Part shown: positions 36,123-39,881 of the stretch, piece after piece | How the letters are laid out: every line of letters begins with the position of its first letter | How positions within the stretch are numbered: the first letter of the stretch is position 1 | From: Ferrimonas marina | GTDB lineage: Bacteria; Pseudomonadota; Gammaproteobacteria; Enterobacterales; Shewanellaceae | Reading direction: 5' to 3' | Length of the DNA: 64,000 bases | NCBI RefSeq assembly: GCF_900129905.1 | Contig: NZ_FQXG01000002.1 | Location: forward strand, 248,001 to 312,000 | Translations under genes and position numbers: made by a program | The notes under the pieces: generated by a model | Seen by the model: only the letters and a program-made list of their open reading frames with translations | Told to the model about the DNA's origin: nothing | Database searches by the model: none

Positions 36123-36503
36123 TCAGCCTGGTTGGCCACATTCCGGCAGGCGTGAGGAGTGGTGCTCGATGATCATCCAGCGAGAGCCGTTCCAGCGGTA
36201 GACGAAGCTGAAGCGGGCCTGGACGGAGGAGCCGTCATTGAACTGGAAGGTGTAGATCCCGGAATTGATCGCAAGCCCGTCAAAACGACGAATGTTGGCC
36301 TCATCGATCCGCCCCCACGGCCCAAGCGCCAAAAAGTCTGAGAAGTAATCCGAGATCTCGGCGTGGTTGTGGCGCACTTGGTTGGAGATGGTGGGAAGCA
36401 GGATGGCGTCGCGCTCGTACAGCGCAGTGACGTGTGCGGGATCGCCGCTTTGCAATGCACCGTTCCATTCATCAAACAAGGCTTCGATGTCGTTTTTCGT
36501 CAT
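36123..36503 (-). CDS. NTF2-like (SnoaL/DUF4440-type) protein
   Basis: A 126-residue protein with the cone-shaped NTF2 fold: an N-terminal helical pair (DIEALFDEWNGALQSGDPAHV, VTALYERDAILLPTI), then beta-strands ending in RFSFVYRWNGSRWMIIEHHSS. Relatives include SgcJ/EcaC-type proteins and CaMKII association-like domains, used as small enzymes or binding modules; function unknown. CTGGAG precedes ATG by 3 bases. It lies 62 bases after the CobW-type gene on the same strand and may be part of the zinc-responsive group. Confidence 0.7.
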   Translation of the reverse strand: MTKNDIEALFDEWNGALQSGDPAHVTALYERDAILLPTISNQVRHNHAEISDYFSDFLALGPWGRIDEANIRRFDGLAINSGIYTFQFNDGSSVQARFSFVYRWNGSRWMIIEHHSSRLPECGQPG

Positions 36504-36565: not shown

Positions 36566-37486
36566 TCAGCCAGACAACCGGTCTGCGGCCGTGAGTAAAA
36601 CCGCGGCAATCGCTTTATCCAGGACCGCAGGTTGGCTACCGGGTCCCACTGCCAGCAACTTGGCACCGGCAACCGGCTCACCGTAGAAATCGCGAGTACT
36701 CACCTGGCCATCGGGGCCACGTTCAAAGTAGCGGTAGCCACTGCCATCGCCTATCTGGGTGCACCCCTTCACCCGCAGCAAGCTATTGGGAAGCCGCTGA
36801 CACAGTTCATGGATGCAGTGCTCGTCCGGTAGGCTGGGAAGCTCGGTGGAGCAGGAAGCCCAGTGGGCCTTTTGATGCTCAATGGCGGCGGCGTTGTTGC
36901 TCGACGGCGCCAGTTGAGGCAGCGCCATAAGATCAACACCATCGAACTCAAGGATCTGCGCCTGAGGGTTGAGCTCATTGAGTGCACCGATCACCTCAGC
37001 CTTGCGTTGTGCTAAGGCCTGGTCCAGATGAGTCAGCAGGATCAGTGAGGAGACCTGAACCTGGCTGGCTTCCAGCTCGTTGTGTGCGCCCCGTTGCTGC
37101 CAGTTTTTAACATCCACCACGGAGATCTGAACCGGGGGCAGGAAGCGATCGTCGATGCCCACACCAAGAAAGCCCATCAGCCTGCAGGCGTCCGAGGTGC
37201 CATTGGCCTCGATCAGGGTGATGCCCTTGGGGCGCTCCGGGATGCCATTGACGAACTCCCTCAACTCGTTAATGCCGCTGCAGCAGATGCAGCTACCGTT
37301 CAATGCCTGAACCCATTGGGGAGCAAGGTGCTCGGTGAGCTGTTGGGCATCCAAAGACGCATTCTCGTAGTCATTGAGGATGACAAAAGGCTGCCAACCG
37401 GCGTCGATATAGCCCTTGGTCAGGTGTTGCAACAGGGTTGTTTTCCCGGCCCCCAAAAATCCGACAATGGCCACAATGGCTTCCAT
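36566..37486 (-). CDS. CobW/G3E-family GTPase, divergent type
   Basis: A 306-residue metal-chaperone-type GTPase. Walker [10 protein letters not shown] lies at 9-17, CxCC metal motif CICC at 66-69, and DVKNW near 125 as switch region. The G4 NKxD element is replaced by THLD (152-155), so guanine specificity may be altered. Start at 37486; a GTG 18 bases earlier lies against AAGGGA. G3E GTPases with CxCC bind zinc or cobalt and insert or move metals. It is downstream of the MerC-like gene on the same strand, probably in the transcript controlled by the Zur box. Confidence 0.78.
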   Translation of the reverse strand: MEAIVAIVGFLGAGKTTLLQHLTKGYIDAGWQPFVILNDYENASLDAQQLTEHLAPQWVQALNGSCICCSGINELREFVNGIPERPKGITLIEANGTSDACRLMGFLGVGIDDRFLPPVQISVVDVKNWQQRGAHNELEASQVQVSSLILLTHLDQALAQRKAEVIGALNELNPQAQILEFDGVDLMALPQLAPSSNNAAAIEHQKAHWASCSTELPSLPDEHCIHELCQRLPNSLLRVKGCTQIGDGSGYRYFERGPDGQVSTRDFYGEPVAGAKLLAVGPGSQPAVLDKAIAAVLLTAADRLSG

Positions 37487-37557: not shown

Positions 37558-37959
37558 TCAGGCATCATGGGCACAAGCGCGAGCCCGACAAAGACTAAAG
37601 TTGCGCCAGTGCGCAGAGGCCAAAACCAGAGCAGCGATCACGGTCGCTACCTTCTCGCCCATCTCCCCAAGCAGGTCATGACCGAACAGTGCGGTCAGCA
37701 CCAGTGCCAGCAGGCCAACAACGCCGCCGAGCAGCACCCAGCGGTCCTTGTGGCGCCGACAGCCCAGCAACAGGGCGATGATGCTGGATGGGATAACGAA
37801 GAGTACCAGCAATTTATGGAATGTCTCATCCTCCATCGGCAATATCGCTAAGGCAGGAAAAGTCGCCAAAACAATGGGCATCACTGCACAATGCAGTGCG
37901 CACACCACCGAAACGCCGATGGCCATCTTATCCAGTAACGCTTGCCCGACTTGATTCAT
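37558..37959 (-). CDS. MerC-domain membrane protein
   Basis: A 133-residue protein with four hydrophobic segments (about 14-32, 45-62, 70-88, 95-112). CALHC (Cys20, Cys24) in the first TM is the heavy-metal-passing motif of the MerC family. C-terminal CRARACAH gives further thiols. In mercury operons MerC imports Hg2+, but no mer genes are here. Its position next to a Zur box, CobW GTPases and zur argues for zinc or related metal handling (inference). AAGGGAG lies 6 bases before ATG at 37959. An in-frame upstream ATG at 38013 would add a Gly-Thr/Asn-Gly repeat coded by the hexamer array. Confidence 0.7.
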   Translation of the reverse strand: MNQVGQALLDKMAIGVSVVCALHCAVMPIVLATFPALAILPMEDETFHKLLVLFVIPSSIIALLLGCRRHKDRWVLLGGVVGLLALVLTALFGHDLLGEMGEKVATVIAALVLASAHWRNFSLCRARACAHDA

Positions 37960-38010: not shown

Positions 38011-38045
38011 CATTGGCTCACTTGATAACCGTTCAGTCTTTGCTA

Positions 38046-38064
38046 AATGTTACAACATAACATT
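38046..38064. promoter_or_regulatory. Zur box (zinc uptake regulator operator)
   Basis: AATGTTA-CAACA-TAACATT is a perfect 7-5-7 inverted repeat. It fits the TGTTA-N5-TAACA core of the gammaproteobacterial Zur consensus. It lies 27 bases before the CobW2-zur operon and about 87 bases before the MerC-like gene start, so Zur could shut both directions when zinc is plentiful. zur itself is encoded in the + operon, suggesting autoregulation. Confidence 0.85.
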
Positions 38065-38090: not shown

Positions 38091-39332
38091 GTGGCACCAA
38101 CGCAAGAGACCGGCACCAACTCATCCCGCCTTCCCGTGACCGTCCTGTCGGGCTTCCTGGGTGCGGGCAAGACCACGCTGCTCAACCAGGTATTGAACAA
38201 TCGTGAAGGACGGCGGGTTGCGGTGATCGTCAATGACATGAGTGAGGTCAACATCGACGCTGCCCTGGTAGAGCGTGGTGGGGCTGAGCTGTCGCGCACG
38301 GAAGAGAAACTGGTGGAGATGTCCAACGGCTGCATCTGCTGTACCCTGCGCGACGACCTACTGGCCGAGGTGTCCCGGTTGGCACGGGAGCATCGCTTCG
38401 ATTACCTGTTGATCGAATCCACCGGCATCTCAGAACCTATTCCCGTGGCTCAAACCTTTACCTTTGAGGATGAACAGGGGGTAAGCCTGAGCCAGGTCTC
38501 CCGTCTCGATACCATGGTAACCGTAGTGGATACCGCCAGCTTTCTGCAGGATTACCAGGCCGCCGATGCCCTGCGGGACCGGGGAGAATCCCTGGGTGAG
38601 GACGACCATCGCACCGTCACCGATCTGCTCATCGACCAGATCGAGTTTGCCAATGTCATCGTGCTGAACAAGTTGGACCTGGTCACGCCGGACCAGGCCC
38701 TGGAGGTGGAGGCGATCGTCAAGGCGCTCAACCCCGGTGCCAAGCTGCTGCTAACCAGCCAGGGGGAGGTCCGGTTGAATGACGTGCTCGACACCGGCCT
38801 CTTTGACTACAACGAAGCCGCCAGCTCCGCTGGTTGGCTGCGTGAACTGCAGGGCCAGCACACCCCGGAGACCGAGGAGTACGGCATCTCCAGCTTCATC
38901 TATCGCACCCACCAGCCGTTCGATGCCCAAAAGCTCTGGGCCTTTATCCAGCGGGACGAGAACTGGCGTGGCGTGCTGCGCTCCAAGGGGTTTTTCTGGG
39001 TGGCAGCGGATCATCGCATCGCCTACGAATGGGCACAAGCCGGCGGGATCACCAACGTGGTGCCCAGCGGCATGTGGTGGGCTGCGGTGCCGCGGGAGAG
39101 ATGGGCACATCCAGAGGGGCAGCGGCCGGATCAACGCCCGGGCTGGCATCCCCGATTTGGTGATCGGGCACAGCAGATCGTGTTTATCGGGCAAGCGATG
39201 GATGAGGCGCTGATCCGATCTCGCCTGGACGAGTGCCTGCTGGATGAACGACTCGCAGCGGCCGACAGTGAGGCTTGGGCGCGACTGGATAATCCGTTTC
39301 CTGCCATCCAGATGGTAGAGGGTCAGGCGTAG
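38091..39332 (+). CDS. CobW/G3E-family zinc GTPase (ZigA/YeiR/YjiA-like)
   Basis: A 413-residue protein. Walker [10 protein letters not shown] lies at 21-29, CICC metal motif at 81-84, switch EST near 110, and NKLD at 194-197, all intact; a C-terminal CobW_C domain (about 265-380) includes FFWVAADHR. Zur-controlled members deliver zinc to essential enzymes during scarcity. GTG at 38091 is preferred, 5 bases after GGGGG; a TTG at 38079 is the alternative. It lies directly behind the Zur box and 69 bases before zur. The start choice is uncertain; the function is well supported by context. Confidence 0.85.
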
Positions 39333-39401: not shown

Positions 39402-39881
39402 ATGGACATCGACAAGGTGCTTGAGAGATCAGCAGCGAAGTGCCAAGGCATGGGCGGCAAACTCACCGCTAAGCGCCGGGATCTGCTGTCCGTCCTGCTC
39501 CGGGCCGACCATCCGCTATCGGCCTATGAGCTGACCGAGCACTACAACCGGCGCTTCGACGGCAAGCTCCAACCCATGTCCACCTACCGGATGCTGGACT
39601 TCCTGGTACAGATGCAGCTGGTACACAAGCTCTCCTCGGTCAACAAGTACCTGGCCTGCGCCCACATCGCCTGCCAGCACCAACACGCCGATCAGCACTT
39701 TGTGGTCTGCCACCGCTGTGGGGCCGCCAAGGAGATCAACATCGACAACCAGCAACTTGCCACTCTGCTGAGCAGCGTCACCGAGATTGGCTATCAACTG
39801 AGACAACCTCAGCTGGAGCTGGATGGAGTGTGTGAAAAGTGCGCCGACGTTAGCCGTGAGACAACCGCCGCCCTTCGCTGA
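39402..39881 (+). CDS. zur: Fur-family zinc uptake regulator Zur
   Basis: A 159-residue repressor. The N-terminal winged helix (about 20-85) includes the recognition region LQPMSTYRMLDFLVQMQLVH. The structural zinc site is formed by Cys103/Cys106 (CHRC) and Cys144/Cys147 (CEKC), at nearly the same positions as in E. coli Zur; Cys86 and His88 can serve the sensory site. It follows the CobW GTPase gene behind a Zur box, so probably represses its own operon. ATG is preceded by a poor ribosome site, which may keep levels low. Confidence 0.9.
   Translation: MDIDKVLERSAAKCQGMGGKLTAKRRDLLSVLLRADHPLSAYELTEHYNRRFDGKLQPMSTYRMLDFLVQMQLVHKLSSVNKYLACAHIACQHQHADQHFVVCHRCGAAKEINIDNQQLATLLSSVTEIGYQLRQPQLELDGVCEKCADVSRETTAALR

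Follow-up and report, generated by a model that had tools for sequence, protein, structure and literature searches.

A candidate Zur operator between MerC-like and G3E GTPase genes of Ferrimonas marina and its recurrence beside a CxxHC branch of the MerC family

A divergent gene cluster around a Zur-like palindrome

The window, by which we mean the whole 64-kb stretch of Ferrimonas marina DNA analysed here, contains two groups of genes that diverge from an intergenic region bearing a palindrome. Their coordinates, strands and principal profile matches are as follows:

36123..36503, minus strand: NTF2/SnoaL-like protein (PF08332, 62 bits; TIGR02246)
36566..37486, minus strand: short G3E/COG0523 GTPase (PF02492, 90.3 bits), with a CICC motif and THLD in place of NKxD
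37558..37959, minus strand: MerC-domain membrane protein of CxxHC type, 133 aa (PF03203, 92.6 bits against a cut-off of 27.6)
38046..38064, no strand: candidate Zur box, a perfect 7-bp inverted repeat around CAACA, recognised by pattern and comparison
38091..39332, plus strand: ZigA-type zinc metallochaperone GTPase (NF038288, 621.7 bits, above the cut-off of 600; CobW_C present)
39402..39881, plus strand: zur-like gene for a Fur-family regulator (top NCBIfam match PRK11639, Zur)

Read by eye, the MerC-like gene starts at ATG 37959 behind an AGGGAG ribosome site, with a longer ATG start possible at 38013, and the ZigA-type gene likely starts at GTG 38091, its longest ORF running from TTG 38079; with the former two starts the genes lie 131 bp apart. 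A first-pass annotation made from the letters alone had placed a MerC-domain protein and a CobW GTPase with THLD instead of NKxD on the left, and the profile matches and motifs bear it out on both. Its right-hand side, a CobW GTPase with a CxCC motif followed by zur, holds for the two genes, but the CxCC is not peculiar to that side, as both GTPases carry it in the form CICC. The Pfam search found no CobW_C domain in the short GTPase, and the NTF2-like gene, which follows after a gap of 62 bp, is possibly the last gene of the leftward unit. The regulator scores 76.2 bits against the PRK11639 equivalog cut-off of 167 bits, and its best PDB matches are 7dh7 (named Fur family, 1.9e-19) and the E. 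coli Zur 4mtd (6.3e-18), with 2xig (Fur) far weaker at 5.2e-06; going by its relatives and setting, and with its score below that cut-off, we describe it as Zur-like.

The palindrome, AATGTTACAACATAACATT, occupies positions 38046-38064 within the divergent intergenic region, exactly where and as first annotated, and is the single 0-mismatch match in the 64-kb window, which contains no other match to the pattern with up to 3 mismatches. A looser hit would have meant little, since 0.41 matches with up to 3 mismatches are expected per shuffled window. The published proteobacterial Zur box is a 23-bp element of the form GAAATGTTATA-N-TATAACATTTC (PMC4219657). The window palindrome agrees with it at 17 of 22 positions, the top score in the window, with the runner-up place at 14, so that the earlier description of the site as a match to the known Zur operator core can stand. 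The locus thus combines an inverted repeat close to the published box with a ZigA equivalog and a Zur-like gene on one side, and we consider the operator at 38046-38064 very likely, as judged from these comparisons, to be that of Zur. A sigma-70-like promoter was also looked for and none was found, which counts against the explanation that we favour below.

A genome-wide search with the pattern AATGTTAYANYRTAACATT, allowing up to 3 mismatches, returned the window palindrome as the sole 0-mismatch site of the genome. A second Zur-like palindrome, AACGTTATAACATAACGTT, lies with 2 mismatches at G000:C18:112005-112023 (L028:1501-1519), 42 bp upstream of the first ATG of a DUF1826 gene, and a third site, with 3 mismatches, is at C7:527176. 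Haas et al. 2009 (PMC2770081) name DUF1826 in the legend to a figure on COG0523 clusters regulated by Zur. The genome has three matches to PF01297 (ZnuA) at two places; the 12-kb and 8-kb stretches that bear them are free of Zur-like boxes with up to 3 mismatches and contain one Fur-like site with 4 mismatches, some 3 kb ahead of one znuA. By eye, a Fur-like site is also seen at L030:1651-1669, with a TonB receptor gene on one side and a cluster that includes a znuA-like ABC system on the other. A second CxxHC MerC-like gene of the same genome (L032:5106-5504, contig C6) has neither a Zur-like box with up to 3 mismatches nor a zur-like gene nearby, which counts against a general link.

Recurrence of the box and of zur-like genes at MerC-like loci

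We assembled 205 MerC-like loci, namely the window, the second MerC-like gene of the genome, 120 loci from other genomes, 3 from plasmids and 80 from named contigs, and reduced them to 141 that are non-redundant at 70% identity; these are a sample by similarity to the window protein, not a random one. All 88 rows from other genomes found in the order-level search were analysed, and 11 rows with low scores in the class search were left out (G400, G424, G223, G071, G084, G388, two of G080 and three of G331). This survey showed that: 1) 50 of the 141 loci have a box with up to 3 mismatches in the roughly 200 bp ahead of MerC, against a mean of 5.05 and a maximum of 10 in 60 shuffled runs, so that about 5 of the 50 may be chance, and the 3-mismatch matches of L180 and one of those of L125 overlap Fur-like sites. 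2) With up to 2 mismatches the count is 28 of 141 loci (shuffled mean 0.5), and such boxes reach a density of 1.06 per kb over the 200 bp that precede the MerC start, as against 0-0.03 per kb in the downstream bins. 3) In the same 200 bp a reversed control pattern yields 0 boxes with up to 2 mismatches and 8 with up to 3, where the Zur pattern yields 30 and 60. 4) The five spacer bases, which were left free in the search, come out as T A A/T T A when the best boxes of 52 loci are summed over both strands, and the centre of the published Zur box likewise reads TAWTA (PMC4219657). 5) A second rise in boxes, at -700 to -400 (20 boxes at 18 loci, up to 3 mismatches), fits boxes placed ahead of zur in zur-merC pairs.

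The neighbouring genes tell a similar story, with the proviso that the label Zur was assigned by a profile built on the zur-like gene of the window and may include other Fur-family genes. By this label the immediate upstream neighbour, in the same orientation, is a zur-like gene at 41/141 loci and in 43 of 80 named contigs, among them those of Gilvimarinus, Kangiella, Zhongshania, Aliikangiella, SAR92 and Methylophaga. At 27/141 loci a G3E gene of the same orientation begins no more than 1.1 kb downstream of MerC. Altogether a box or a zur-like gene is found nearby at 96 of the 141 loci; the 45 that have neither count against a uniform association. A plasmid of Sphingomonas parapaucimobilis carries a closely similar divergon, with G3E and DUF1826 genes on one side, MerC, G3E and repressor genes on the other, and a 3-mismatch box before MerC. 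On a Catenovulum plasmid (L216) a Zur-like box with perfect arms, AATGTTATATTATAACATT, stands 72 bp before the approximate start of a MerC-domain gene that has no zur or G3E match nearby. On a cyanobacterial plasmid (Tolypothrix, L217:4621-5381) a MerC-domain gene is immediately preceded by the gene for an ArsR/SmtB-family regulator and has a heavy-metal P-type ATPase for a neighbour; this MerC-domain gene may be under another metal regulator.

Within the genus a zur match is found in 2 of the 14 genomes searched, that of the window and G002, and the THLD-type GTPase in the same two of 60 genomes, our own included (E-value 1e-20 or better). In the G002 orthologue of the short GTPase the motif is TRLD, and a separate 1-mismatch box stands some 56 bp upstream of the gene. 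Two observations from G002 count against the link: its MerC gene has a 4-mismatch site only, although zur is present, and the 3.4 kb surroundings of that zur contain no box with up to 3 mismatches. L179, which is closest to the window protein (57% over 130 columns), comes from G009, a genome of the same genus with no zur match, and has a Fur-like box alone upstream. MerC-like genes show an excess of Fur-like boxes with up to 2 mismatches ahead of them, 5 falling in the 200 bp upstream and 4 in the other bins. Besides L179, Fur-like boxes are seen at L118, L124, L125, L175 and L091, several with a Zur-like box nearby.

The presence of the box, the order of the genes and the repeated occurrence of both box and zur-like gene beside this branch of MerC-like proteins are evident from sequence and comparison. 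That the MerC-like gene belongs to the Zur regulon, in the window and in many relatives, is on this comparison highly probable. The first-pass proposal of a Zur operator controlling a MerC-family gene is strongly supported by this comparison, which took up its suggestion to look for the same box before MerC-like genes of related genomes.

The CxxHC branch and its probable function

The window protein reads CALHC in helix 1 and lacks the CxxC followed by FP that characterises mercury-type MerC. All of 122 relatives keep C20 and C24; H23 and H117 are conserved in 99%, D10 in 98%, E102 and H70 in 93%, and H48 in 75%, with Glu in the other 25%. An AlphaFold2 model built from 54 sequences is all helical (mean pLDDT 79.2, pTM 0.71), and fold searches gave no clear match. 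The N-terminus, loop 2 and C-terminus are rich in K/R and loops 1 and 3 are acidic, and because of these loop charges an N-in/C-in topology with the acidic loops outside is predicted. With that topology C20, H23, C24, H48 and E102 would lie towards the periplasmic half, with the tail facing the cytoplasmic GTPases.

We propose that one operator for zinc-loaded Zur serves the two divergent transcription units. When zinc is sufficient Zur would sit on the operator and keep both units off, and on zinc starvation it would be released. De-repression would then supply the CxxHC MerC-like inner-membrane protein and the short G3E GTPase from the left-hand unit, and Zur itself along with the ZigA-type chaperone from the right-hand one. 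Most likely the role of the MerC-like protein would be to carry zinc, or some other divalent metal, into the cell through the inner membrane, and the metal would pass to the cytoplasmic G3E GTPases for placement into client enzymes. We favour, with modest confidence, this reading of zinc or divalent-metal import under Zur with such a hand-over.

The readings that compete with it differ in how much of the evidence they leave in place. One keeps the Zur operator and the regulon membership and has the MerC-like protein import a substitute such as iron, cobalt or manganese, or several divalent metals, when zinc is short. The Fur-like boxes before a few MerC-like genes, some of them near a Zur-like box, speak for it, as does the nearest relative L179 with its Fur-like box in a genome without a zur match; but the 200 bp upstream hold many more Zur-like boxes than Fur-like ones (30 against 5, up to 2 mismatches) and the direct neighbour of MerC is often a zur-like gene, and we regard a substitute metal as unlikely, though deserving serious consideration. 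Since Fur-like boxes do precede some MerC-like genes, including L179, zinc may nevertheless not be the only metal of this branch. It is less likely still that the protein is no transporter at all and acts as a membrane-bound zinc chaperone, sensor or docking partner of the G3E GTPases: the downstream same-strand G3E genes noted above and the Cys-bearing C-terminal tail of many members would suit such a role, whereas the possible ligands within the helices, and the kinship to MerC, a mercury transport protein in mer operons (PMC12193353), suit a permease better.

The name of the Pfam family, and the strong match of the window protein to it, would make the protein a mercury transporter that merely happens to lie near zinc genes. 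Against this stand the replacement of CxxC by CxxHC and a FastTree tree (154 rows, 136 columns) which, though otherwise poorly resolved, places 13 CxxC proteins together on a single branch whose local support is 100%. In a comparison set of 20 of the further PF03203 rows, 18 loci have CxxCFP and 13 have in their stretch an ORF that we take to be MerA/Lpd-like by a motif pattern, and 0 of the 20 have a Zur-like box with up to 3 mismatches in the 700 bp upstream; the same motif is absent from all six frames of the 64-kb window, which sets the window gene apart from those near a merA. We therefore hold a mercury transporter to be very improbable. It is barely credible that the inverted repeat arose by chance or serves another regulator: the expectation for shuffled windows would allow for a match with up to 3 mismatches, but this one has 0 mismatches, is the sole such site of the genome and has counterparts at homologous genes. 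As far as their sequences tell, the proteins linked to Zur form a branch of CxxHC type that is distinct from mercury-type CxxC MerC, and the window protein can with good reason be inferred to serve zinc. The first-pass suggestion of MerC-like proteins able to serve zinc instead of mercury is plausible for the CxxHC branch, and does not extend to MerC-like proteins at large.

These observations suggest that a whole branch labelled "mercury resistance" may be part of the bacterial zinc-starvation response, with annotation giving a mercury name to proteins that appear to be under zinc control in many genomes. As a tentative generalisation, which we put forward with some doubt, the CxxHC branch of PF03203 might comprise widespread, unrecognised small zinc importers of the zinc-starvation response that work with G3E GTPases, in the Gammaproteobacteria and beyond, and are mislabelled as mercury resistance proteins. 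If import is true, a further and very small protein would be added to those by which bacteria take up zinc, and a candidate membrane source of the metal would be at hand for the COG0523 chaperones.

Relation to known zinc and mercury systems

No paper linking MerC with Zur was among the matches listed in a literature search, most subscription journals lying outside its scope, and the available portions of PMC2770081, PMC4219657, PMC12193353, PMC12452194, PMC6103462 and PMC7698356 contain no such link; in the last of these a MerC domain-containing protein appears in the expression table of a response-regulator study, where the available text does not mention zinc. The Zur regulon of E. coli has promoters for ZnuC/ZnuABC, ZinT, L31P and PliG (PMC4219657). 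The window shares with the proteobacterial regulon the symmetry and core of the operator and the presence of a Zur-like regulator gene alongside it; unlike those sites, its box precedes MerC-like and G3E genes, not znuABC or a ribosomal paralogue, and has CAACA at its centre. MerC of mer operons resembles the window protein in its PF03203 domain, similar size and paired Cys in helix 1; the window protein differs in its CxxHC motif, its extra conserved His/Glu, its separate branch and its zur-like and G3E neighbours in place of merA. The right-hand GTPase, which lies above the curated cut-off for ZigA (NF038288), shows no notable difference from that family. There is also a likeness to the Zur-regulated COG0523/G3E clusters of Haas et al. 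2009, as far as they are described in the available text (PMC2770081): there, as in the window, a COG0523 gene adjoins a zur-like gene, and the DUF1826 of those clusters has its counterpart in the DUF1826 gene behind the second box of our genome and in the Sphingomonas plasmid cluster, which has both families; MerC, by contrast, is not mentioned in the main text of that account. The regulon is one of a known kind, and the CxxHC branch of MerC-like proteins is very probably a new member of it.
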